Source of the DNA: Komagataeibacter xylinus
GTDB taxonomy: Bacteria; Pseudomonadota; Alphaproteobacteria; Acetobacterales; Acetobacteraceae
Assembly (NCBI RefSeq): GCF_009834365.1
Contig: NZ_CP041350.1
Coordinates: forward strand, 62,001-126,000
Direction of reading: 5' to 3'
Length of the DNA stretch: 64,000 bases
Shown: positions 41,731 through 56,055 of the stretch, one piece after another
Position numbering within the stretch: position 1 is the stretch's first letter
Layout: each line of letters starts with the position of its first letter
Notes under the pieces: generated by a model
What the model was told of the DNA's origin: nothing
Databases searched by the model: none
Seen by the model: only the letters and a program-made list of their open reading frames with translations
Made by a program: the position numbers and the translations under genes

Positions 41731-42099
41731 TCAGCACGCGTGGTCCAGCAGGCGATGAAGGTAGGCGGCCAGTACAACCGCCTCGTTATGCTGCGTGTCA
41801 CGCGCGCCATACAGCAGGGTGATGGGACCGGCGCGCGCCATGTCCAGCAACTGCTGCACCGGATTGGGATTGGCCTGCAGTTCCGCGCTGTAGCGTTCCT
41901 GAAACCCGTCCCACCGGGCCGGGTCATGCCCGAACCATTGCCGCAGTCCGGTGCTGGGCGCGATATCTTTCAGCCACAGCGTCAGGTCAGCGCGCTGTTT
42001 GCTGACCCCACGGGGCCACAGCCGGTCCACCAGCACGCGGCTGCCATCATCGGGTGCGGGCGGGTCATAAACCCGCCTGACATGGATGGGGTGCGCCAT
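41731..42099 (-). CDS. DUF488-family protein
   Basis: A 122-residue protein of the DUF488 family (HIHVRRVYDPPAPDDGSRVLVDRLWPRGVSK-type N-terminus; WFGHDPARWDGFQERYSAEL in the middle; TLLYGARDTQHNEAVVLAAYL at the end). The function is not established. It lies 2 bases after the flavohaemoglobin stop in the same direction, so it is co-transcribed and probably connected with nitric oxide stress; that link is inference. Confidence 0.85.
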   Translation of the reverse strand: MAHPIHVRRVYDPPAPDDGSRVLVDRLWPRGVSKQRADLTLWLKDIAPSTGLRQWFGHDPARWDGFQERYSAELQANPNPVQQLLDMARAGPITLLYGARDTQHNEAVVLAAYLHRLLDHAC

Positions 42100-42101
42100 G
42101 C

Positions 42102-43310
42102 CTATCCGACCAGGGCCGCATCCGCCGCGGAACCGAAGAATTCGAAACGGATCTGGCTTTCGGGCACGCCACCCGCCTTCAGCGTGGCGATGGCATCACG
42201 CATGAAGCTGTCGGGACCGCAGATATAATAGCTCGCGGACCGGTCGATTTCGTGCGTAAGCCATGCTGGTGTCATGCGGCCTGCGTGAGTGGTGACGCCT
42301 GTGGCGTCCTGTGCTGCCTGCGGTGTAGCGCGGCTGTAGAACAGATCGGCGCGCAGCATGCCCTTTGCGGCAAGGTCGCGGATATAGGGGCCAAAGGCTT
42401 CCGTTGCGGGCGTACGGGTGGTGTGGATGTAACGCACGCCCGTGGCCGCAGCCGCATCCAGCGCGCCCAGCATGGAAATGAATGGCGTCAGGCCAGAACC
42501 CGCGCTGAGGAATACGATGGGTGCGGGGGCCGGGTTGCCCAGCGTGAAATCACCCGCCGGAGCGGAAACCTGCAGCACCGTGCCCTCTTGCACGCTGTCA
42601 TGCAGCCAGTCGGATACCACGCCATTGTCGATGCGACGGACGCTGATGCGGTAGGACTGTGAACCGGGTGCGGAAGAAATGCTGTAATTCCGCCGTTCCG
42701 AGCCATATCCCGGCACGTCGAGGCGGAAGCTGAGATACTGCCCCGGCACATGGCGCATGACGGGCTTGCCATCGACGGGCGCCAGTTCGAAGGAGGTAAC
42801 GGTCTCACTTTCCACCGTGCGGCGGCTGACACGGAAGGGACGCCAGCCAACCCAGCCACCGGGGGCCGCGGCATGGGCCACGTAAATCTGTTCTTCCCGC
42901 CCGATCAGGATTTCAGCCAGGAACCAGTAGGCCTTGCCCCACGCATCCATGATATCGGGGGTTGCCGCATCCCCCAGAACATGGGCGATGGCGCCCAGCA
43001 GGGCATCGGCAACATAAGGATAGTGCTCGGGCAGGATGTTCAGCCCGACATGCTTTTCCGCAATGCGTTCGACCGCACCGGCCATGGCACCAAGGTTGTC
43101 GATATTGCGGGCATAGGCCAGCACTGCAAGCGCCAGTGCCTTTGGCTGTTCCCCGTCCTTCTGGTGCGAAATGTTGAACAGATCGCGAATATCTGGATTG
43201 GCCAGCAGGCGGCGATACATTTCCGTCGTTATCGCCAGACCATGTGCTTCCAGCGCGGGCACGCAGGCCTTGATGATGCTGCGGGTCTTGTCATCCAGAG
43301 GTGACGCCAT
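42102..43310 (-). CDS. hmp: Flavohaemoglobin (nitric oxide dioxygenase)
   Basis: Oxidises nitric oxide to nitrate with O2 and NAD(P)H, in the cytosol. The 402-residue protein has the N-terminal globin domain (MASPLDDKTRSIIKACVPAL; proximal histidine in IAEKHVGLNILPEHYPYV near residue 87), then a ferredoxin-reductase module with FAD motif RRNYSISSAPG, NAD-binding VFLSAGSGLTPFISMLGAL and the C-terminal YYICGPDSFMRDAI. Its place next to the nitrate operon suits protection from NO made from nitrite. An inverted repeat lies just upstream. Confidence 0.95.
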   Translation of the reverse strand: MASPLDDKTRSIIKACVPALEAHGLAITTEMYRRLLANPDIRDLFNISHQKDGEQPKALALAVLAYARNIDNLGAMAGAVERIAEKHVGLNILPEHYPYVADALLGAIAHVLGDAATPDIMDAWGKAYWFLAEILIGREEQIYVAHAAAPGGWVGWRPFRVSRRTVESETVTSFELAPVDGKPVMRHVPGQYLSFRLDVPGYGSERRNYSISSAPGSQSYRISVRRIDNGVVSDWLHDSVQEGTVLQVSAPAGDFTLGNPAPAPIVFLSAGSGLTPFISMLGALDAAAATGVRYIHTTRTPATEAFGPYIRDLAAKGMLRADLFYSRATPQAAQDATGVTTHAGRMTPAWLTHEIDRSASYYICGPDSFMRDAIATLKAGGVPESQIRFEFFGSAADAALVG

Positions 43311-43327
43311 TTTTTCCGATCTTTCTT

Positions 43328-43353
43328 AAAGATATATATTTAGGAATATCTTT
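43328..43353. promoter_or_regulatory. Inverted repeat upstream of hmp, possible NsrR-type site
   Basis: AAAGATAT (43328-43335) and ATATCTTT (43346-43353) form a perfect 8-bp inverted repeat with a 10-base AT-rich spacer, 18-43 bases before the hmp start. It resembles the AAGATGCATTT-type NsrR operator but the spacing is not identical. A second element, TCTTTAAAGA, lies about 8 bases further upstream. Confidence 0.5.
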
Positions 43354-43379
43354 CTGGATGTCTTTAAAGATGTCAATAT

Positions 43380-43985
43380 TTTATACCTTTATGGCCACGC
43401 ATACCTTTTATGCATGGGTCGTTTTGTTGGGTGGTCCGAAAACATCTGCATAATCTCGTACGCGGTGCTCCAGTGCCCAGCGTATCGGGAACATGCTCCA
43501 TCCGTTTCCCACTCAGCGGCATGAAGCCTGCTTACAGGTTGATGGCCTGATGCCGTCCGCATAATCCTTGCAGCAGGGTGATTTCAAATGACCGGCCAGC
43601 CAGTGGGCACAAGCGGGAGTATTCGTGGACCGCGACGGTGTGCAGGAACGGATCTTGGGACGTAAATCCAAGCCAGCGGAAGTGCATGGCGTTCTTGGTT
43701 TCGGGGATCGGTCCAACCATGCGCCCATATGTTGCCTTGCTTGAAGGTGGCGGCGGCATGGGTGTCCGATCGGCCACTTACGCGGTGGCGAAGCGCTCCC
43801 GGAATGCACGCTCCAACGACCGGGCGATTGTGCCAGTGGTATCTACGCAAAAACCGTCTCGCCGGTCATTGCGATCCCCTGCCACGATCTTTTATGCAAT
43901 GTCTCGAAATTGCGCGGTTTGGCAGGTATCTTTTCTGGGACGACGGCTTTGGCTCATATGATTCTGCCATGACAACACGAGAAAA
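43380..43985. other. 600-base region of uncertain coding content
   Basis: Open stretches exist in several frames on both strands (for example 43532-43777 minus, MADRTPMPPPPSSKATYGRM, and 43578-43961 plus), as expected for GC-rich DNA, but none has a recognised domain, and their overlaps exclude most of them. It may contain remnants of a gene between hmp and the nitrate operon. Confidence 0.4.
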
Positions 43986-43990
43986 ATGTT

Positions 43991-44019
43991 TTGACATCGC
44001 ATTGTTCCGCGTGCAATTA
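43991..44019 (+). promoter_or_regulatory. Sigma-70-type promoter of the nitrate assimilation operon
   Basis: TTGACA (43991-43996), 17 bases, then CAATTA (44014-44019) as a -10 candidate. Transcription would start near 44026, leaving about 135 bases of leader that include the two ANTAR-type hairpins. Confidence 0.55.
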
Positions 44020-44046
44020 AATACCAGACAGGTTTCCTGAAAGACG

Positions 44047-44125
44047 CGTTCATCAATGGCGGTGAACGACGTGGAAATGGCACAAACAATCACGACGACA
44101 CCCGGACGGCCAACGATGGTCTCCG
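44047..44125 (+). promoter_or_regulatory. ANTAR-protein (NasT) RNA target: two hexaloop hairpins
   Basis: The first hairpin is CGTTCATC-AATGGC-GGTGAACG (44047-44068); the second is CGGA(C)GGCC-AACGAT-GGTCTCCG with a bulged C (44103-44125). Both loops have six bases with A first and G fourth, the ANNGNN rule for RNA targets of ANTAR antiterminators. A short hairpin GCCT-GAATAA-AGGC follows at 44127-44140, but no U run is seen. NasT, an ANTAR protein, is encoded in the same operon. Confidence 0.78.
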
Positions 44126-44160
44126 TGCCTGAATAAAGGCGTCTCCGTCACACCTGATGG

Positions 44161-45402
44161 ATGGGGACTGGATGCGATGACGTGGACACAGGATTCCTCA
44201 AAGCCGGAAACCCGCGTACCCTTCTTGCGGCGTTCCTGTATTTCGATGTCTCGTTCATGGTGTGGGTCCTGCTTGGCCCGCTGGGCATTTCGATTGCTCA
44301 CGACCTGCATCTGAATGCCGGTCAGAAGGGCCTGCTGGTCGCGACCCCGGTTCTGGCAGGTGCGCTTTTGCGTGTACTCGCCGGCGCGCTGGTCGATCAT
44401 TTCGGGCCGCGACGGGTCGCGATTGGCGCCCAGATTCTTGTCATCGCCGGGCTGTTCCTGACATGGCTGATCGCGCCACACAGCTATGGCGCACTGTTCG
44501 GGGTTGCACTTGTGCTGGGCGTCGCCGGGGCGTCGTTCGCGATTGCGCTGCCGCTGGCCTCCGCATGGTATCCGCCACAATATCAGGGCACGGCGCTGGG
44601 AATTGCCGGGGCCGGCAATTCCGGCACGGCGCTTGCCTCGCTGTTTGCACCTGGCCTGGCCGTGCTTTATGGCTGGGTCAATGTGCTGGGGCTGGCAACG
44701 CTGCCACTGACCGCCGTGCTGGTCGCCTTTATATTTCTGGCCAGTGAACCGCCGCAGCGTCGCTCCAGTGGCGGTCTGCTGACGTGGCTGCCCGTCCTGC
44801 GCAGCGGCGACTGCTGGCTGCTGATGTTCTTTTATGGCGTGACATTCGGCGGTTTTGTGGGGCTTGCCTCGTTCCTGACCATCTATTTCAACGACCAGTA
44901 CGGCCTGCCGCCTGCCATTGCCGGAAGCTGTACGGCGCTGGTCGTGTTTGTCGGGTCCTTCGTGCGTCCTCTGGGGGGCGCCATGGCCGACCGGATCGGC
45001 GGCGAACGCGCCCTGAGCATCCTGTTCGCGCTTGCTGTCGCCATCTTTGCCGTGATCGGGTTCGGCCTGCCCACGATCTGGCTGGCCTTCCCGGCTTTTT
45101 TCCTGGGCATGCTCGTGCTGGGTCTGGGCAATGGCGCGGTCTTCCAGCTTGTGCCCACACGTTTCCCCAGCCGCGTCGGTATCCTGACCGGGCTGGTGGG
45201 CATGAGCGGCGGGGTTGGCGGGTTCTATCTGGCGTCATCACTCGGAGCCGCGCGACAGGCTACGGGGTCCTACGGTCCCGGCTTCCTGGGCTTTGCCTCG
45301 GTTACGCTGGTGGCGTTTGCCTGTGTTGGCGTGTGCCGTCGCCGCTGGGCGGCTGAACGGCCCCGGATGTCGGCTGAAGCCGATGCGACCGCCTCTTCAT
45401 AA
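44161..45402 (+). CDS. Nitrate/nitrite transporter, MFS NNP family
   Basis: Takes up nitrate across the inner membrane. The 413-residue protein has 12 predicted hydrophobic helices and the NNP signatures GIAGAGNSGTALASLFAPGLA in the first half and LVLGLGNGAVFQLVP in the second. The N-terminus LLAAFLYFDVSFMVWVLLGPL is typical of NasA/NarK transporters. It is the first gene after the ANTAR leader; the exact start is uncertain because the first 12 residues are unconserved. Confidence 0.92.
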   Translation: MGTGCDDVDTGFLKAGNPRTLLAAFLYFDVSFMVWVLLGPLGISIAHDLHLNAGQKGLLVATPVLAGALLRVLAGALVDHFGPRRVAIGAQILVIAGLFLTWLIAPHSYGALFGVALVLGVAGASFAIALPLASAWYPPQYQGTALGIAGAGNSGTALASLFAPGLAVLYGWVNVLGLATLPLTAVLVAFIFLASEPPQRRSSGGLLTWLPVLRSGDCWLLMFFYGVTFGGFVGLASFLTIYFNDQYGLPPAIAGSCTALVVFVGSFVRPLGGAMADRIGGERALSILFALAVAIFAVIGFGLPTIWLAFPAFFLGMLVLGLGNGAVFQLVPTRFPSRVGILTGLVGMSGGVGGFYLASSLGAARQATGSYGPGFLGFASVTLVAFACVGVCRRRWAAERPRMSAEADATASS

Positions 45403-45424
45403 TATCAGATCAGGAACGTATCCC

Positions 45425-47065
45425 GTGACCTGTATTTCCGACGCGCTCCGGCCCGCTTCGCTTACGGTCGGCTTCACCACCGTTCTTGCCAGCCTGTGTA
45501 CCGGCCATGCGGCCCTTGCCGACACGGCACCCGCCGCGGGTGTCACGGCAACCGGTATCCGCCCGACCTCGTCCCGTCCACCTGAGAAGGCGGCCATCCA
45601 CCACGTGACACTGCCACACAGCCCCGACTGGGGGGCATTCAATGCCGGAAAAGGGGCCGCGGCCGGTTTCGGGACCGTTGGTGGTTTCGGACAGGCGCGC
45701 TGGGCCGAGGACTGGAGCGACATTGTCAATACGCCACCTGAACAGCGCCGGAACGACTGGTTCAACCGCCTGAAATATATTCCCCTGACGGACAAGGGCG
45801 ATATCTGGCTGTCCATTAGTGGGGAGGAACGGCTACGCTACGCCTTTGAAAACCAGCCGCAGATGGGAACCGCGGGCAAGACCAACGCCAGCCGCGTACT
45901 ACTGCGCAGCCAGTATGGTGCCGACCTGCACCTGGGTGAACATGTCCGCGCCTATGCCGAGTTCCTGTGGGGCGACGCCGGGGGATCGAATTATTATGGC
46001 TACCAGACCGGGGTGCAGCGCGAACGGCTGGATCTCCAGCAGGGCATTCTGGAGGTAAAAGGCAGGATGCTGGGCGCACGGATGGGCGTGATCGGCGGTC
46101 GCCAGATCTTTCTCGATGCCCCTGTCACCATGCAGTCCGCACGCGACCTGACCAACGCACAGCAGTCATGGGATGGATTCCGTGGCTATGCGGTGTGGAA
46201 ATCCTTCCGGCTGGACCTGTTTGACTTCATGCAGACCAACAAGCTGCCGCGCAATGTCTTTGCCGACGGCACGAACTACAACGCCCGGATGTATGGGATC
46301 TATACGTCCACGGCACTGCCGAAGTTTTCGGTCATGGGACAGAAAAGCCAGGTTTTTGCTGATGTGTTCTTCATTGGCTACCTGTTCAACGGTGCATCGG
46401 CGGCGCTGGCCACCACAACGGGCACGCAGGCCGGATCGACCCGCCGCGACAATATCGGTGCACGCATGTGGGGGAATGTCGGCCCCTTCGATATCAGCCT
46501 GACGGGCGTGTTCCAGGGCGGCGAATTCCGTCCCGCCAGCGGGGGCGCAACACGCGCAGTGCGCGCCTATGCCGTTAACGGGACATTGGGATGGACGGCA
46601 AAAAGCCTGAAGGCAAAACCGTCCATCGCATTGCAGGGCGACCTGTTTTCAGGCGGGTCCTACCATAGTCAGGATGGCGCGGTCGGCACATTTGCTACGC
46701 CCTATTTCCCGCTGCCGTATTATAATGACGTGACACTGGCCCTGACATCGCAGAACCTCGTCGGCATCGGGCCGGTCATTACGGCAGCGCCACTGGCGAA
46801 CCTGCGTCTCAAGCTGCATGTTCCCGTTTTCTGGCGCGAAAGCACGCAGGATGCAGTGTATGGCACCGGCAAGATCTATAGCTGGCGCAACGGGCTTTTG
46901 GGCGGGTTCATTGGCACCACGCCCCAGACACAGCTTGCGTGGAATTTCGCGCCCCACTGGACATGGACGCACGATATCGCAGGCTTCGTCGCATCGCAGG
47001 GGATGCACCGTGCGGGGGCGAAGGACGGGGCATTCTACATGCAGACCATGGAATTCAAATTCTGA
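45425..47065 (+). CDS. Outer-membrane porin, alginate-export (AlgE-like) family
   Basis: A 546-residue product with a signal peptide ending near GHAALADTAPA and repeated beta-strand patterns, ending in aromatic MEFKF, as outer-membrane barrels do. Blocks such as ISGEERLRYAFENQPQ and LLRSQYGADLHLGEHVRAYAEF match alginate-export porins. GTG at 45425 is chosen because AGGAACG lies 9 bases upstream and the signal peptide starts there. Inside this operon it most likely lets nitrate or nitrite through the outer membrane; that substrate is inference. Confidence 0.78.
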   Translation: MTCISDALRPASLTVGFTTVLASLCTGHAALADTAPAAGVTATGIRPTSSRPPEKAAIHHVTLPHSPDWGAFNAGKGAAAGFGTVGGFGQARWAEDWSDIVNTPPEQRRNDWFNRLKYIPLTDKGDIWLSISGEERLRYAFENQPQMGTAGKTNASRVLLRSQYGADLHLGEHVRAYAEFLWGDAGGSNYYGYQTGVQRERLDLQQGILEVKGRMLGARMGVIGGRQIFLDAPVTMQSARDLTNAQQSWDGFRGYAVWKSFRLDLFDFMQTNKLPRNVFADGTNYNARMYGIYTSTALPKFSVMGQKSQVFADVFFIGYLFNGASAALATTTGTQAGSTRRDNIGARMWGNVGPFDISLTGVFQGGEFRPASGGATRAVRAYAVNGTLGWTAKSLKAKPSIALQGDLFSGGSYHSQDGAVGTFATPYFPLPYYNDVTLALTSQNLVGIGPVITAAPLANLRLKLHVPVFWRESTQDAVYGTGKIYSWRNGLLGGFIGTTPQTQLAWNFAPHWTWTHDIAGFVASQGMHRAGAKDGAFYMQTMEFKF

Positions 47066-47094
47066 CAGCCGATTGTACGATAGGGGAAACGAAC

Positions 47095-49991
47095 ATGACC
47101 GGAACGCGAAACATCGTCATCATCGGCAACGGTATGGTTGGCCATTACTGTGCCGAACAACTTGTGGCGCATGGTCTGCATGAGGACTGCGCGATTCACA
47201 TTTTTGGTGACGAACTTCACGATGCCTATGACCGTGTGCACCTGACCGAATATATGAGCGGACGCGACGCGCTGGCGCTGCGCCTGCATGTGGATGATTT
47301 CCATACCCACCACGGCCTGACCCTGCACCGTGGCGTCAGGGTGACCCGCATCGACCGCGCGGCCCGGATGGTGGAAAGCGCCGAAGGCCCGCTACCTTAC
47401 GACACGTTGATCCTTGCCACTGGTTCCACGCCGTTCGTGCCGCCGGTTCCGGGCAATACAGGCACAGCGGGGCTGGTCTATCGCACGCTGGATGACCTTG
47501 ACATGATCCGGGCTGCAGCAGAGGGCGCATCGCACGGCGTGGTCATTGGCGGCGGCCTGCTGGGGCTGGAGGCAGCCAATGCGCTGTCGGGGCTGGGCCT
47601 GTCCACGGCCGTTGTGGAATTCGCGCCGCGCCTCATGCCCGTGCAGCTTGATGATGATGGTGGTCAGGCCCTGAAGCAGCGGATCGAGGCACTGGGGATC
47701 GAAGTGCTTACATCCCATGCCACGCAGCAGATCACCGCGGGCGAGACACATCGTCACCGCCTTGTCTTTGCCGATGGTACATTCCTTGAAACCGATCTGG
47801 TGGTCTTTTCCGCAGGCATCCGCGCGCAGGATAAGCTGGCACGTGACTGCGGGCTTGCCATCGGTCCGCGCGGCGGTGTTGTGATCGACGGGCAATGCCG
47901 TACGTCCGACCCGGCAATCTACGCAATCGGGGAATGCGCGTGCTGGAACGGGCAGGTTTTTGGCCTGGTGGCACCGGGCTACACCATGGCGCGCACGCTC
48001 GCATCCACCCTGGCGGGAGAAGAAGCTGCCTTTACCGGTGCGGACATGTCCACCAAGCTCAAGCTGCTGGGTGTGGATGTCGGCTCGATTGGCGATGCGC
48101 ATGGCGCGACACCGGGTAGTCGGAGCTACCGTTTCATCGGGGAAGTGGACGGATCCTACCGCCGCCTTGTGCTCTCGGATGATGGCAGTCGTGTGATCGG
48201 GGCCGTGCTGGTGGGGATAACGCCTATTACGACACGATCGTGCAATATGTACAGAACGCCATCAAACCCCCGGCGGACCCCGCGGCCCTGATCCTGCCGC
48301 GTGGGGAGGGAGCGGACCTGCTGGGCGCTGACGCGCTGCCCGATACGGCCATGATCTGTTCGTGCCACAACGTGACGAAAGGGGCGATCTGCACCGCCAT
48401 TGAAGGCGGCTGTACGGATATTGCCGCCCTGAAGCAGTACACAAAGGCCAGTACCGGCTGCGGCGGGTGTTCGGGCCTGCTCAAGAACGTGTTCGAGACC
48501 GAACTCGAAGCGCGCGGCATTGCGGTGGACCACAGCCTGTGCGAACATTTCTCCTACACGCGGCAGGAACTGTACTCGCTTGTCCGTGTGCATGGAATCC
48601 AGACTTTTGAAGACCTGATGACGCAATACGGCAATGGTGGCCTGGGCTGCGATATCTGCAAGCCCGCTGTCGGTTCCATCCTGGCATCGGCGTGGAACAA
48701 GCCGATTACGGACCCGCTCTATATTCCGCTGCAGGACACGAACGACACGTTCATGGCCAACATGCAGAAAAACGGCACCTATTCGGTCGTACCCCGCATT
48801 GCGGGCGGTGAGATCACACCGGACAAGCTGATTGTCCTGGGCCAGGTAGCAAAGAAATACGGTCTCTATACCAAGATCACTGGCGGCCAGCGTATCGATC
48901 TGTTCGGTGCGCAACTGGACCAGTTGCCCGATATCTGGGCTGAACTGCTGGAAGCAGGCTTCGAGACCGGGCAGGCCTATGGCAAGTCCACCCGGACCGT
49001 AAAGTCCTGTGTTGGCAGCACATGGTGCCGCTATGGCGTGCAGGACAGTGTGGGCAAGGCGCTGGATCTGGAAAACCGTTACAAGGGCCTGCGTTCGCCG
49101 CACAAGCTCAAATTCGCCGTGTCCGGCTGCACCCGCGAATGTGCCGAGGCACAGAGCAAGGATGTGGGGGTGATCGCAACCGAGAATGGGTGGAATCTTT
49201 ACGTTTGCGGCAATGGCGGCATGCGCCCGCGCCATGCGGAACTGTTCGCGACTGATCTCGATGCACAGACGCTGGTGAAATACATCGACCGTTTCCTGAT
49301 GTTCTATATCCGGACAGCGGACAAGCTGCAGCGTACCTCGGTCTGGCGTGAAAATCTTGAAGGCGGGCTGGATTACCTCAAGGATGTCATCATCAACGAC
49401 AGCCTTGGCATCTGCGCGGAACTGGAACGGCAGATGCAGATGGTGGTGGACCACTATCACTGCGAGTGGCGCGACGCGCTGACGGACCGTGAAAAACTCA
49501 AGCGGTTCCGCACCTTCGTCAATGACAGCCGCCCCGACCCGAACATCCGCACCATTCCCGAGCGCGATCAGGTCCGTCCGGCCGAAAACCTGCCCGAAAC
49601 CGTAGCATCAGCCGGCCCGCATGACTGGACCGAACTGTGCGGACTTGATGACCTGGTGGCAAAATCAGGTGTCGTAGCCTGGCATGACGGAAGCCAGATT
49701 GCCCTGTTCTACCTACCTGCAACGCAGGGCGTGCCCGCCCGGGTCTATGCGATCGACAACCATGATCCGTTTTCAAACGCCAATGTAATCGGGCGCGGCA
49801 TCATGGGCGACCTGAAGGGACAGGTGGTGGTGGCCTCCCCGCTCTACAAACAGCATTTCCGTCTGGAAGATGGACAGTGCCTGGAGGATCCCGCCGTCCG
49901 GCTGCGGACATGGGACGCCCGCGTGGAAAACGGGAAAGTGGCGATCCGGGCCCGGACGGCTACAGCCACGCCGGAACCCATTCCGGCCTGA
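47095..49991 (+). CDS. nirBD: Assimilatory nitrite reductase, NirB-NirD fusion, frame broken by one base
   Basis: NAD(P)H-dependent sirohaem enzyme reducing nitrite to ammonium in the cytosol. Order: FAD/NAD(P) domain (IVIIGNGMVGHYCAEQL, ILATGSTPFVPPVPG), Bfd-like [2Fe-2S] region (ICSCHNVTKGAICTAI, TGCGGCSGL, about residue 420), sirohaem/4Fe-4S domain (KSCVGSTWC, SGCTRECAEAQSKD), then a Rieske-type NirD domain fused at about 835-965. The frame is lost after VLVG near 48216: four G are present where five give VGDNAYYDTIVQYVQN. With that base the protein is 965 residues. GGGGAAA precedes the ATG. Confidence 0.9.
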
Positions 49992-49995
49992 TCCC

Positions 49996-52900
49996 ATGGC
50001 GCGGGAGGACATCCGCACGGTCTGCCCCTATTGCGGGGTGGGCTGTGGGGTCATACTGGAGGTGGAGAACGGCCGTATTGCAAAAGTGCGGGGCGATGGC
50101 GCGCACCCCGCGAATGGCGGCCGCCTGTGTACCAAGGGCAGTTCGTGCGACCGGCCGCTCCTGTCCGACCAGCGCCTGCGCCATGCCGCCATCCGCCCCC
50201 GGCGCAGGGAACAGGCCGCACCTGCGGGCGTGCAGCAGGCCATCGACGCCACGGCGGCACGTCTGCGCGCCATCCTTGATGAACATGGACCCGACGCCAT
50301 CGCCTTTTACGTTTCGGGGCAGATGTCGCTGGAAGCACAGTACCTGATCAACAAGCTGGCCAAGGGGTTTGTCCGCACCCAGCATATTGAATCCAATTCC
50401 CGCCTGTGCATGGCCGCCGCAGGCACCGGCTACAAGCTGTCGCTTGGCGCCGACGCCCCGCCGGGCAGTTATGAGGATTTCGACTGCACTGACCTGTTTT
50501 TCGTCATTGGCGCCAACATGGCCGACTGTCACCCGATCCTATTCCTGCGGCTGATGGACCGCAAGCGGGCAGGGGCGCGCCTGATCGTGGTTGACCCACG
50601 CCAGACGGCCACGGCGGAAAAGGCCGACCTGTACCTACCCATCCGTCCCGGCACGGATCTGGCGCTGCTCAACGGCCTGCTGCACCTTCTGGTCCAGAAC
50701 GATGCGATCGACAGGGAATTCATCGCCCGGAACACGACAGGGTGGGAGACGATGGAACCCTTTCTGGATGACTACGCCCCCCCGACCGTGGCCGAAATTA
50801 CCGGCCTGCCGGTCGAGGACATCCTGACCGCCGCGCGCTGGATCGCGGAGGCCGGGGAGTGGATGAGCCTGTGGACCATGGGCCTGAACCAGAGCGTTGC
50901 CGGGACATGGAACACCAACGCGCTGTGCAACCTCCACCTTGCCACCGGCGCCATCTGCCGCCCCGGCAGCGGGCCGTTTTCACTGACCGGACAGCCCAAC
51001 GCCATGGGTGGGCGTGAAATGGGCTATATGGGGCCGGGCCTGCCGGGGCAGCGCAGCGCACTGGTGGCGGCGGACCGCGCCTTTACCGAAGAACAGTGGG
51101 CGCTACCCCCGGCACCCTGCGCGACACCGGGGGCAATGGCGTGATTGCCATGTTCGAGGCGATGGAACGCGGTGACATCCGGGCATGCTGGGTCATCTGC
51201 ACCAACCCCGTCGCCACCGTTGCCAATCGCCGCCATGTGGTCCGGGCGCTGGTAGCCGCGGAATGCGTGATCGTGCAGGATGCGTTCGCGGATAGCGAGA
51301 CGACGCGCTTTGCCGATATCGTGCTGCCCGCCGCCCTGTGGGCCGAAGGGGACGGCGTGCAGGTCAATTCCGACCGTACCATGACCCTTGCGCGCAAGGC
51401 GGTCCCACCGCCGGGCGAGGCGCTGCCCGATTGGGACATCATCGCCCGCGTGGCGCGCGCCATGGGGTATGGGAAGGATTTCGCCTTCACATCCGCCGCC
51501 GAAGTGTTTGCCGAGGCCAGCCGGTTCAGCAACCCCAAAACCGGCTATGACATCGCGGGCGTCAGCCACGCGCGGCTGCGCAACGGACCGGTGCAGTGGC
51601 CCGCGCCCGCAGGCGACATGCAGGACCGGCATCCGATCCGTTACCTGTCTCCTGACGGGACCGGCCCCGTCTTCGCCACGCCAGACGGGAAGGGGGTCTT
51701 TTTTGCCCGTCCATGGATGCGGCCCGACGAATGGCCGGATGAGGAATTCCCCTTCGTGCTGAACAGTGGCAGGCTGCAGCACCAGTGGCATACGCTGACC
51801 AAGACCGGGCGCGTGGACAGCCTGAACCGCCTGAATCCCGGCCCCTTTGTGGAAATTGCCCCGCCCGATGCCCATGCGCTTGGGCTGTTAAAGGATGATC
51901 GCGTAAAAATCACGTCACGCCGGGGGCGGATCGTCCTGCCGGTCCAGATCTCCGCGCGGGTACGGCCCGGCACCTGCTTTGCCCCGTTCCACTGGAATGA
52001 CCGTTTCGGGCCGGATCTGACGGTCAATTCCCTCACACCGGACGCAGTTGACCCGATTTCGCTGCAACCCGGCTTCAAACTCTGCGCGGTGGCGCTGGAA
52101 CGGGTGGAACAGGCCGCACGCCCGGCCGCCGATGATGTGGAACCAGTCAGGAAAGGAGAGGCCGCCATGATGCTGCGCGCCCTTACCAGCCATCTCGGTC
52201 TGGAGCGACCGGACCAGTCCGTTGCCGCAACCCTGCCCGAGGAGGGACGGGCATGGCTGTCCGGGTTCCTTGACGGGCTGGAAATGGCCCCGCCGGGCGT
52301 GGGCGAGGTACCCGTGCTGCCCGCATCGGCACCTCTGCCGGCACAGGCGCGCGCCCGTATCAGCGGTATTTTTGCAGGCTTGTACAGCCGCATGCAGCCG
52401 GGTGAAGGCGGCGGGACCATGCCGGCGCCTGCGGCCGCCACGCCGGGTATCAGCGTATGGTGGGCATCCCAGACCGGGCGGGCGGAAGGACTGGCAGCCA
52501 CGATCGTTGGCTGGCTGCGCGAAGCCGGCCACGCGGCGGAAGGAAAATGCCTTGATGCATTTGATGTAAACATCACCGCCGCAGGGCCGGCGCTGTTCGT
52601 GGTATCCACCTTCGGTGACGGAGACCCGCCAGACTGCGCCGCTCCGTTCTGGGACATGCTGCGTGAACGCCAGGCCCCCATGCCCGGCCTGATATTTGCC
52701 GTGCTGGCACTGGGGGATTCCTCGTATGCCAGTTTCTGCGGTTTCGGCCGTGCGCTGGACGGACGCCTGCGGGAACTGGGGGCAACGCCATTCGTGGAAC
52801 GCGTGGACTGCGAGCCGGATTTCGAGGATACGGTCGAGACGTGGCGGACAACCATGCTTACGGCCCTTGCGCAGGTCGCAACCGGTGGGCAGGTTGCCCC

Positions 52901-53972
52901 GCCCGCGCCGGTGGAAGCACCATCGCCCCCGGTTTCCGGCACGCGGGAGGCCCCGGTCATGGCCCGGCTGTCCATCAACGAGCGCCTGTGCGCCGCAGGG
53001 TGCGACAGGGATACGCGGCGCATCGGCCTGGATGTGAGTGGAACGGAACTGAACTGGCTCCCCGGCGATGCGCTGGGCATATGGCCCAGCAACCCGGCGG
53101 TCCATGTGCAGGCGGCCCTGCGCGCGCTGCGCCTGCCGGAAGAGACGCCCGTCGTGCTGCGCGGCTGCGGAACGGTGGGGCTGCGCGAAGCCCTTACGCG
53201 CCACCTTGACCTGAGCCGCCCCAACCCGGCCATGCTGGAAGCACTGGGTGGTTGTGCGCCGGGTTTCCTGCCCCACCTGCTGAACGATGCAGTGCTGTCG
53301 GTCACGGCGCAGGACATACCAAGCCTGTTCCGGCGCATGCAGCCGCGGCTTTACTCGATCGCCTCCTCGCCACAGGCATCCGGGCGGGTGGTGGAATTGA
53401 CAATGGGGGTCAGCCTTACGCCATGGCCGGGCATATGCTCGAACTGGCTGGCGGGGCTGGAAGCGGGGGCGGACGTGCCGGTTTTCATCCAGCCCACCAC
53501 GCATTTCCGGCTGCCGGCAGATGATGCCGCCGCCATGATCATGATCGGCCCCGGTACCGGCATTGCGCCATTCCGGGGGTTCCTGCAGGAACGCGCGGCA
53601 CGGCAGGCTTCGGGCCGGAACTGGCTGTTTTTCGGAGAACGCCACGCGGCGGAAGGCTTCTACTATCATGATGAACTGGACGCCTACCTGTCAAACGGGG
53701 TGCTGACGCGCCTTGATACCGCCTTTTCACGTGACCAGCCCGAGAGGGTGTACGTGCAGGACCGGATGGAAGCCGCAGGCAGCGAATTGAGGGACTGGCT
53801 GCGCGATGGAGCTTATATCTATGTATGCGGTGATGCGACCCGCATGGCGCGGGATGTCGATGCGGCACTGCGCCGGATCGTGGCCCGTCACGGTGACCTG
53901 TCATCTGGCGATGCGGATGCATTCGTAAGCAACCTGACACGCGAAGGCCGCTATCTGCGTGATGTGTACTGA
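49996..53972 (+). CDS. nasA: Single-chain assimilatory nitrate reductase: molybdopterin NasA fused to flavodoxin and FAD/NADPH reductase, frame broken by one base
   Basis: Reduces nitrate to nitrite. The N-terminal part has the 4Fe-4S motif C10-PY-C13-GVG-C17 and C45, then the molybdopterin domains to about residue 710. A flavodoxin-like FMN domain (ISVWWASQTGRAEGLAATI, about 818) and a CysJ/P450-reductase-type module (FAD motif RLYSIASSP about 1117; NADPH motif GPGTGIAPFRGFLQ about 1184; GAYIYVCGDATRMARDVD near the end) follow, so electrons can pass NADPH-FAD-FMN-FeS-Mo in one chain. The frame breaks at C5 near 51110 (C6 restores LPPGTLRDTGGNG). Restored length is 1325. Confidence 0.9.
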
Positions 53973-54583
53973 TGTGTGAGGACATGGTGCCCGGCACGCG
54001 CCTGAGGGTGCTGGTCGCGGACGAAAACCCCCGCAGGGGCCATGCCCTGTCGGAGACGTTGCACGCCGATGCGTCGCTGGATGTCCTGACCGTTCCCCCC
54101 GGCACGGCGCTGGTCGATGCCGTGCGGGCCTGTCGGCCCGATGTCGTGCTGGTTGACATGAACAGGGCCGACCGTGACGCGCTGGACAGTATTCGCGCCC
54201 TGTCCTGTTCGGCACAGGAACGACCGGTCGCCCTGTTTGTGGATGAGGACGATGTGGAACTGATGGAAACGGCCTTTGATACGGGCATATGTTCCTACAA
54301 CGTGCTTGAGGCACTACCCCGTGATGTAAAGCCGCTGCTGCGTGCCGCCATCGCGCTGTATGCCCGCTTTCGCCGCACACGCGATGAACTGACCGAAGCG
54401 CAGCGTGTGCTTGCCGAGCGTAGGATTATCGAACAGGCCAAGAGATGTTTCATGAAAAATGAAAAAACCAGCGAAGCGCAGGCCTATCGGTGGTTCCAGC
54501 GCCGGGCCATGCAGACATCGCGTCGCATCGCAGCCGTCGCCGGGGAGTATCTGGCATCGCAGAAAAAGGATGAGGCATCATGA
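53972..54583 (+). CDS. nasT: NasT, ANTAR-domain antiterminator of nitrate assimilation
   Basis: A 203-residue response-regulator-like protein: the receiver-like domain (RLRVLVADENPRRGHALSETL, DVVLVDMNRADRD) is followed by a C-terminal three-helix ANTAR domain (LTEAQRVLAERRIIEQAKRCFMKNEKTSEAQAYRWFQ, then MQTSRRIAAVAGEYL). ANTAR domains bind paired hexaloop hairpins; such a pair lies in the operon leader. The start overlaps the nitrate reductase stop by 1 base and the end overlaps nasS by 4, so the circuit is coupled to the operon it controls. Confidence 0.9.
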   Translation: MCEDMVPGTRLRVLVADENPRRGHALSETLHADASLDVLTVPPGTALVDAVRACRPDVVLVDMNRADRDALDSIRALSCSAQERPVALFVDEDDVELMETAFDTGICSYNVLEALPRDVKPLLRAAIALYARFRRTRDELTEAQRVLAERRIIEQAKRCFMKNEKTSEAQAYRWFQRRAMQTSRRIAAVAGEYLASQKKDEAS

Positions 54584-55575
54584 ACACACCGTTACGGATC
54601 GGCGTGCTGAAGCTGGCTGACAGCGCACCAGTCATCATGGGGCGGCACCAGGGCATTTTTGCCCGACATGGACTGGAAACCGAGATCGTCGTCTCCCCAT
54701 CCTGGGCCAACATCGCCGATGGTCTGGCATGGAACCGGCTGGATGCGGCCGTCATTTTCGCGCCGCTGGCCATGATGACCGCGCTCGGGCGGCGCGGGCA
54801 TGACACGGGGCTACGCCCGCTAGGCCGGATCAGTCGGAGTGGCAACACGATCATGCTGCGTGGCGCCAACCCGGTGGAAGGCACATGGAATGCCGGCTCC
54901 CCGGGGCGGCAGGCGTTTGACCTGTGGGCCATGAGCATCGGGAGAAAGCCGCGTATCGCCGTCGTGCATATGTATTCCACCCATCTCCTCATCCTCCGGC
55001 GTTTCCTGAAGATGATCGATGTCAGCATGGAGGATGAAATCGACCTCTCTGTCATGCCCCCGACCGACATGATCCATGCGCTGGCGGAAAACGCGATTGA
55101 TGGCGGCTGTGTCGGTCCGCCATGGGGCACGGAGGCAGAACAACGCGGACTTGCCTTTCGCGTGGGCGGATCCGCCACCGTCCTGCCCGACCATGTTGAA
55201 AAGATCATTGTCGCATCGGGGAAACTCCTGTCGTGCGATGCGACGGGTCGCCGCATGTCGCATGCCCTGCGGGACGCGATTGCGTTCTGCCAGCAGCCGG
55301 GTCGCCGCGCGGACATCGCACGCGCACTGGCGGCCCCCGTTGCGGATGGCGGGCTGACATTGCCGCTGGCGGCGACGGAGGCCATCCTGCCCGGTGGGGA
55401 CGCACGCGAATGCGTGACCTTTGCCGGGGGCAGCCTGCTGCCGTCCGACCTTGACTGGATCATAAGCGATATGACGGCGCTGGGGTGGGTGGACAATGCC
55501 GAACACCAGATGCTCATGCGCTGGATCGGTCCCGTGCCCGCCGATCCTGCCCCTGCCTGCGCGCGATCACTGTGA
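54580..55575 (+). CDS. nasS: NasS, nitrate-sensing NrtA/CmpA-like protein
   Basis: A 331-residue cytoplasmic relative of nitrate-binding proteins (no signal peptide), starting LRIGVLKLADSAPVIMGRHQGIF, with SPSWANIADGLAWNRLDAAVIFAPL as the ligand-binding lobe. In characterised systems NasS holds NasT inactive until nitrate or nitrite binds. The 4-base overlap with nasT supports the pairing. Confidence 0.9.
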   Translation: MNTPLRIGVLKLADSAPVIMGRHQGIFARHGLETEIVVSPSWANIADGLAWNRLDAAVIFAPLAMMTALGRRGHDTGLRPLGRISRSGNTIMLRGANPVEGTWNAGSPGRQAFDLWAMSIGRKPRIAVVHMYSTHLLILRRFLKMIDVSMEDEIDLSVMPPTDMIHALAENAIDGGCVGPPWGTEAEQRGLAFRVGGSATVLPDHVEKIIVASGKLLSCDATGRRMSHALRDAIAFCQQPGRRADIARALAAPVADGGLTLPLAATEAILPGGDARECVTFAGGSLLPSDLDWIISDMTALGWVDNAEHQMLMRWIGPVPADPAPACARSL

Positions 55576-55596
55576 ACCGTGCGGGGGAGGGAAACC

Positions 55597-56055
55597 ATGC
55601 TGTTCAATTTCGAAATGGATTTTACCCTGTCATTACGCTGCGTTCCCATGATCGTGCGCATGAAGCTGGATCTGTGCGGTGTAAAACTGAGCCTGCGCCA
55701 GTGGAGCCGTTTTACGCAGCACGACAGGCAGGCACTGGTGGACCGCCCCGCCACCATGCCGCCGGAACGGGCGGCATACCGGTCGTTCCTCCTGCACCTG
55801 ATCAGGACCCGGGCGGGAGAAGAGCCAAAACTGCTTCCACCGGCCCGGATGGAAGTCTGGCAACTGGCTGTTGGCGTGCCCGATGCGATCACGCTGAAAG
55901 CGCAATCCAGTGGGTTGAGGGCACCCACGCCCGAACAGTGGGGACATCTGTCGGTCCTACAGCGCTTCGCGCTCCTTAAGCTTACCAGGCCTGGGCACGA
56001 AAATCAGAATTTTGAACCGGCTCTGCGGGAATTTCTCGGTGAGATGTATAATTGA
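55597..56055 (+). CDS. Conserved nitrate reductase-associated protein (second copy)
   Basis: A 152-residue paralogue of the protein at 2734-3267: MLFNFEMDFTLSLRCVPMI, KLSLRQWSRFTQHDRQALV and LQRFALLKLTRPGHENQNF correspond block by block. GAGGGA lies just before the ATG at 55597, which removes six residues from the longest reading. It is the last gene of the nitrate operon, the usual location of this family; its function is unknown. Confidence 0.85.
   Translation: MLFNFEMDFTLSLRCVPMIVRMKLDLCGVKLSLRQWSRFTQHDRQALVDRPATMPPERAAYRSFLLHLIRTRAGEEPKLLPPARMEVWQLAVGVPDAITLKAQSSGLRAPTPEQWGHLSVLQRFALLKLTRPGHENQNFEPALREFLGEMYN

Follow-up and report, generated by a model that had tools for sequence, protein, structure and literature searches.

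What is the role of the stretch that separates a divergent flavohaemoprotein gene from a nitrate transporter gene in Komagataeibacter xylinus, and through which protein would it act? The DNA analysed (64,000 nucleotides (nt), hereafter the window) comes from a 190,752-nt contig, one of the 4 that make up the 3.98-Mb genome, and an earlier note, made from its letters alone, had described this stretch as a leader with paired hexaloops of the ANTAR-target type, in front of an operon that itself encodes the ANTAR protein NasT. We put at roughly 80% the probability that the leader RNA (positions 44047 to 44168) would be a NasT target and that the operon behind it would be nitrate-responsive and autoregulated, as judged from its sequence and by analogy with studied relatives. 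The core of the earlier reading (an ANTAR/NasT target, autoregulation, and possibly something other than simple antitermination) is supported. By its conservation, the element is a real NasT-type leader of a known kind, which differs from the described type in its linker and in its ending; our best reading of it is a NasT-regulated, long-linker, terminator-less leader.

Two hairpins, both on the + strand, form its core. P1 (44047-44068) has an 8-bp stem, CGTTCATC/GGTGAACG, which joins 44047-44054 to 44061-44068 (-9.0 kcal/mol), carries the loop AATGGC (44055-44060) and is prolonged outwards by the pairs 44044-44046/44070-44072, with one A bulged. P2 (44104-44124) has 7 pairs and one bulge (C 44107) between 44104-44111 and 44118-44124 (-9.1 kcal/mol), and its loop is AACGAT (44112-44117). 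Both six-base loops have A at position 1 and G at position 4, the hallmark of ANTAR targets, and both are closed by a C:G pair, as is the A1/G4 hexaloop that NasR picked in SELEX (systematic evolution of ligands by exponential enrichment), according to PMC7496416. The observation of paired hexaloops is thus confirmed: the loops obey the A1/G4 rule as first noticed, and both stems fold and covary. Within the 64-kb window, C:G-closed ANNGNN hairpins of -6 kcal/mol or better occur as a pair 40-68 nt apart once on the + strand (P1/P2) and once on the - strand, and P1 is more stable than its own shuffles (z -3.1).

Conservation was assessed in 32 leaders, namely the window locus, 29 other loci of the family, K. 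europaeus and A. ascendens, using a script that seeks C:G-closed ANNGNN hairpins 40-68 nt apart. The pair was present in 28/32 leaders at -3 kcal/mol or better, in 24 at -6 and in 20 at -8, while dinucleotide shuffles of the same leaders yielded it in 0.5% of 3200, 0.05% of 1920 and 0/1920 cases, respectively. Across the aligned P1 (n = 25) and P2 (n = 25) sequences the closing C:G, A1 and G4 columns are invariant, an invariance partly imposed by the selecting script, which required the motif in most of them. The stems vary with compensation: 86.4% of P1 cells are paired and 56 are changed on both sides (shuffled mean 18.0), the corresponding values for P2 being 83.0% and 28 (shuffled mean 11.1), and 0/500 shuffles equalled either count, although these counts are not probabilities since the shuffles do not keep kinship. 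The number of pairs with any two-sided change was less telling (230/500 shuffles as high for P1, 64/500 for P2), and the score drops when either helix is slid. The alignments held 25 (A2, A3), 19 (A4) and 18 leaders (A5, R1). The covariance model R1 has one strong site in the genome, at this leader (67.4 bits, a score high by construction because the window site is among the 18 building sequences), followed by a site of 20.1 bits (E 0.13); at E <= 0.01 it matched 35/200 genomes of the family and 19/385 of the class, the latter mostly weakly. Among 80 named transporter loci, the script found a pair within 40-70 nt in 34, chiefly from Komagataeibacter, Acetobacter, Gluconacetobacter, Gluconobacter, Asaia and further Acetobacteraceae. 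The other 46, mainly Rhodocyclales, Zoogloea, Caulobacterales and the like, have no pair in that range, and they include some Acetobacteraceae (only P2 in L093 and L113, neither hairpin in L147). The two sets (29 + 34 = 63), minus 2 leaders without a recognised start and identical rows, gave 52 distinct leaders, which we divided by our own classing into near-clade (n = 30) and distal (n = 22) leaders. The two loops are therefore kept in related leaders, a point on which the earlier note had staked its proposal.

The genome contains a single ANTAR match, NasT (receiver plus ANTAR domains; 53972-54583, +), and it belongs to the operon that the leader precedes, which lends support to the autoregulation proposed before. 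Its gene adjoins that of an NMT1/CmpA-like sensor, a NasS-like nitrate-binding protein (NMT1_2 in Pfam; 54580-55575, +), and the two form a NasS-NasT pair. Their place in the same operon stands as noted earlier, while the gene order is better given as fifth and sixth from the operon start. NasT was aligned with Rv1626 (1s8n, residues 11-197) and EutV (6wsh/6ww6, residues 14-190); of the RNA-contact residues of EutV described in PMC8934654, Tyr164, Met172 and Arg177 are kept and Arg168 is replaced by Gln, by our own residue count in the alignment. For Paracoccus denitrificans, NasT is reported to bind the nasA leader RNA, and NasS and NasT to part on nitrate or nitrite (PMC3795266); for Bradyrhizobium nosR, NasT is reported to interfere with a terminator (PMC6759348).

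In the window the linker between the two hairpins (44069-44103, +) is 35 nt long, not 34 as first counted, and it has a high A and C content and little structure, with a weak predicted hairpin (CGTGG/TCACG). Its unusual length is a trait of the family: loop-to-loop distance is 57 nt here and 42-66 nt across 29 leaders, with linkers of 20-44 nt. In these 29 of the 32 leaders the positions of P1 and P2 were chosen by hand; L054, L055 and L060 have no such pair, and L058, whose P1 is missing from the listing and was seen elsewhere with 4 pairs, was retained. In an Acidiphilium multivorum plasmid the loops are 54 nt apart. Short spacing was seen in Paracoccus denitrificans (25 nt loop to loop), Shinella (19), Ensifer (21) and two Dechloromonas loci (20; L125, L132), and five loci of other Alphaproteobacteria (L251, L265, L266, L269, L271) combine 41-51 nt spacing with a U-tract terminator. 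A hairpin within the linker is seen in many relatives (mean linker z -0.9 over the 29 leaders). As a reason for tolerance of long linkers it was rejected, z lying below -1 in only 11/29 linkers and at -0.07 in the window.

Set beside known systems, the leader resembles the plasmid-borne nasA leader of P. denitrificans, which likewise combines a NasS-NasT pair with two C:G-closed A1/G4 hexaloops (PMC3795266, PMC5424462) and in which we found no T5 run in the stretch scanned; there, however, the loops are 25 rather than 57 nt apart, and nasTS lies upstream of the leader instead of at the operon end. The Klebsiella nasF leader shares the paired hexaloops and the nitrate response (PMC7496416), whereas its regulator, NasR, is a one-component protein with its own nitrate domain and the leader has an intrinsic terminator (PMC3369931, PMC7496416). 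The EutV targets of Enterococcus faecalis are also dual hexaloops with A1/G4 (PMC3369931, PMC8934654), but their linker is 5-12 nt and length-critical, and ligand and operon are different.

Downstream of P2 two further + strand hairpins were recognised, as in the near clade generally. P3 (GCCT-GAATAA-AGGC, 44127-44140) occurs in 19 leaders, its outer two pairs being invariant and its inner two showing compensatory changes in 3 and 5 leaders; several Komagataeibacter and Acetobacter leaders (L087, L089-L091) have the form GCCT-GAAGA/GAAAA-AGGC. We take its loop to be close to the phage lambda boxB hairpin, which may be merely a stable loop, and draw nothing from the likeness. The idea that P3 derives from a third hexaloop was set aside as suggestive only, the sequence AAAGGC being kept and the stem lost. 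Four other leaders (L249, L255, L260, L275) exceed the dual motif by one, having three successive A1/G4 hexaloops of which the last overlaps a terminator. P4 (44141-44168) is a 9-bp hairpin, GTCTCCGTC/GATGGGGAC, without a U tract, whose 3' arm stops 1 nt before the Shine-Dalgarno sequence GGA (44170-44172, +), itself similarly placed in near-clade relatives. The P4 arms of 27/30 near-clade leaders (L085, L086 and L110 left out; Shine-Dalgarno anchors set by pattern) fit their own partners best (16.3 vs 10.6, sd 0.63, when permuted; 0/2000 as high, which is not a probability because the permutations do not keep kinship). RNAalifold on the 19 leaders of A4 did not return P4. In about ten distal leaders a hairpin likewise abuts GGAG, as judged by eye.

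By analogy with the studied relatives, from which NasS release and NasT binding to the leader are taken, NasS would hold NasT when nitrate is lacking; nitrate or nitrite would free NasT, which would bind the P1 and P2 hexaloops and thereby raise expression of the transporter, porin, nitrite reductase, nitrate reductase, nasT and nasS. That this NasT binds this RNA with activation as the outcome is what we infer from the same relatives. The output step would, at a first guess, lie at P4 and the adjoining ribosome site, where ribosome entry would be regulated or transcription stopped by an atypical terminator; with the loops so far apart and the usual stop signal missing, switching may not follow the textbook route.

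Several points weigh against this reading. P2 alone is not more stable than its shuffles (z -1.0; 31/200 equal). The 35-nt linker lies outside the 2-25 nt that served as a filter in a published search for ANTAR targets (PMC8164766), and because it exceeds that filter we file the leader as a long-linker variant and not as a canonical member; EutV is reported to be strict in this respect, with induction drastically lowered in vivo by a 3- or 14-nt linker (PMC3369931) and antitermination abolished in vitro by 20 extra linker nt (PMC8934654). No U-tract terminator overlaps P2 as the second hexaloop of such targets would have it. Against the Rfam family RF03032 the score was 17.9 bits (cut-off 43.2; E 0.42 in a 401-base search), the P2 region being the part aligned. 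According to PMC6759348, the Bradyrhizobium narK operon, with predicted NasT hairpins, rose instead of falling in a nasT mutant, so that activation by NasT is not a given. Lastly, the nitrite and nitrate reductase genes look split because the nitrite reductase and the nitrate reductase/flavoprotein domains each fall in two overlapping frames (46939-49991 and 49870-53972), which may reflect decay of the operon or a wrong assembly. The cautions voiced in the earlier note, a long linker and no obvious U tract, proved to be features of the family and not oddities of one sequence: no U-tract terminator was found between P2 and the gene start in the window, nor, in the 52 Acetobacteraceae leaders, anywhere from P2 to the Shine-Dalgarno sequence, the 2 matches of the script among these leaders lying at -4 and +40 of the start.

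As to how binding would be converted into expression, we rank control at the ribosome site first, a terminator without U tract at P4 second and Rho third, the first two being nearly level. Tentatively, then, NasT binding would alter access of the ribosome to the Shine-Dalgarno sequence lying beside P4 (near clade) or beside P2 (leaders in which P2 and the start are only about 30 nt apart). P4 ends 1-2 nt ahead of that sequence in near-clade leaders; only 27-32 nt separate the P2 loop from the start codon in 7/52 leaders, which leaves little room for a terminator; and in L087, L091 and L095 the best fold after P2 pairs bases other than P4, with the Shine-Dalgarno sequence among them. ANTAR targets that act on translation have been proposed (PMC3369931), and for P. 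denitrificans so has nas control at the translational level (PMC5424462). On the other hand, when P1 and P2 were forced to form, the initiation region became scarcely more accessible in the prediction (from 0.417 to 0.428 over 52 leaders, Wilcoxon p = 0.10), no significant gain. Masking of the Shine-Dalgarno sequence when NasT is off the RNA was rejected for the same cause: the fold of 44030-44190 as a single sequence pairs its region with the P1 5' arm, and forcing P1/P2 in the 52 leaders does not free the site.

Ordinary antitermination, in which P4 is an intrinsic terminator lacking a U tract that is overridden or prevented by NasT on P1/P2, is possible but somewhat doubtful. In 15/40 NasT-flanking loci a U-tract terminator has a hexaloop overlapping its 5' arm (14/30 from other families, 1/10 from the own family, L277; the script gave 16/40, of which L272 was rejected as coding, and some leaders may lie outside the stretches fetched), from which attenuation emerges as the mode of relatives, and P4 is a covarying hairpin at a matching place. 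Against it stand the absence of a U-tract terminator between P2 and the Shine-Dalgarno sequence in all 52 leaders and the lack of overlap between P2 and P4 in the window. Moreover, no mutual exclusion involving P2 is visible, since in 25/30 near-clade leaders the free ensemble is predicted to contain P2 with a probability of 0.5 or more, on a scale that gives 0 whenever the second pair is mismatched; folding of this static, not cotranscriptional, kind would count against a plain either-or switch.

Termination by Rho within the leader, from which NasT bound at P1/P2 would protect the linker, seems unlikely: it would agree with the lack of an intrinsic terminator in the 52 leaders and with the A/C-rich, weakly structured linker of the window, but the linkers of many relatives fold into hairpins. 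Less probable again is that this strain keeps the leader as a relic, in a decaying operon where the switch has lost its working output. The split reductase frames, set against the single nirB frame of K. europaeus, favour it, whereas P1, P2 and P4 and the transporter, NasT and NasS frames match those of relatives, and the frame splits may be assembly errors. Chance hairpins without function can, on sequence comparison, practically be discounted: P2 alone is indeed not unusually stable, but the covariation, a chance rate of at most 0.5% and the single strong genome site all argue otherwise.

Upstream of the leader, TTGACA (43991-43996, +) is a likely -35 box, matched in relatives, and the candidate -10 box is weak (CAATTA, 44014-44019). 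A start ahead of both hairpins, as the earlier note assumed, gains from this box and its match in relatives, while a scan with the consensus promoter left it blank, with no sigma-70 site found at the leader. By script, a TTGAC box with 16-18 spacing was found in 27/52 leaders, 26 of them in the near clade, and a sigma-54-like TGGC..TTGC site in 18/52, 17 of them distal. Between the boxes (43997-44013 in the window), several near-clade relatives have an inverted repeat resembling TCGGA-N4-TCCGA, possibly an operator, of which the window has a degenerate form.

The operon, ordered by Pfam, comprises a transporter, an alginate-export-type porin, nitrite reductase, nitrate reductase/flavoprotein, NasT and the NasS-like sensor. 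The first gene, which the leader does precede, encodes a nitrate/nitrite transporter of the major facilitator superfamily (44182-45402, +; same annotation in K. europaeus); from the N-termini of relatives its start is most likely GTG 44182 rather than ATG 44161. Its closest named records, from K. intermedius and K. europaeus, are 98% identical, and 78% of positions 43300-56000 were found on a K. europaeus plasmid at 95.6% identity. The divergent flavohaemoprotein gene and a DUF488 gene (41731-43310) adjoin the leader in the same order in K. europaeus, and a 158-aa reading frame (55579-56055) directly after nasS perhaps belongs to the operon. The 21,962 bases of K. europaeus pKE1446-1 (L085) include the transporter and a leader whose P1 and P2 are the same as here; tblastn, run on that stretch alone, found no NasT or NasS, and a recombinase and insertion sequence (IS) elements follow the reductase, so that this leader may be parted from its regulator. 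On an A. pasteurianus plasmid NasT and NasS are complete, but the match to the transporter (L290, 345-1540) is spread over two frames.

The loop motif is also shared with the narK RNA of Rfam (RF03032), although at the gathering score Rfam has no match in the window. We found 23 matches to RF03032 in 15/299 genomes (L062-L084), which read GGCACN..CTTGCT at the start, then CC-AACGGC-GG and finally CGAC-AAAGRC-GUCG. The first of these is presumably a sigma-54 -24/-12 promoter, judged by the consensus for that class. The last is a second hexaloop, unpaired in the Rfam structure, with A1 and G4 in 21/23 matches (G at position 1 in L064 and L079), whose 3' arm is the terminator 5' arm in the matches read by eye. 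Its stem receives moderate support from the alignment, with 79.0% of cells paired against 74.0% when shuffled (9/500 as high) and two-sided changes in 7 cells, where shuffles have 2.8 (0/500), the number of further pair types being not unusual (80/500). RF03032 differs from the window leader in its loop spacing, 20-26 nt in 21/23 matches and 30 and 39 nt in the rest (script count), in the U tract that begins no more than 75 nt behind 21/23 matches, and in the sigma-54-like promoter. Of these 15 genomes, 14 encode a NasT-like protein, each time no more than 1.4 kb from a match. Going by its sequence, the narK RNA appears to combine a sigma-54 promoter with a canonical pair of NasT hexaloops, of which the second lies next to or within a U-tract terminator. 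Our search, which did not reach the original description, found no literature naming the RF03032 RNA; the NasT link may already be in print. Among the matches listed for ANTAR or NasT together with Acetobacter or Komagataeibacter, there was no paper on leaders like that of the window. If confirmed, the link between RF03032 and NasT would give this Rfam family its binding protein.

For the Acetobacteraceae, one speculative history is that their NasT has left attenuation, the terminator being gone, the loops 42-66 nt apart and regulation placed at the ribosome-binding site via the abutting hairpin; we regard it as more doubtful than probable. If it is true, NasT would use its hexaloops as separate or bridged sites, past the spacing that EutV tolerates. 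A search limiting the linker to 25 nt would miss most of this long-spaced family. It is under debate how one ANTAR dimer makes use of two hexaloops: in the EutV structure each dimer holds one hexaloop at a time, while longer linkers kill antitermination by EutV. A conserved natural family that lacks the terminator and has its loops 42-66 nt apart would make that question testable.
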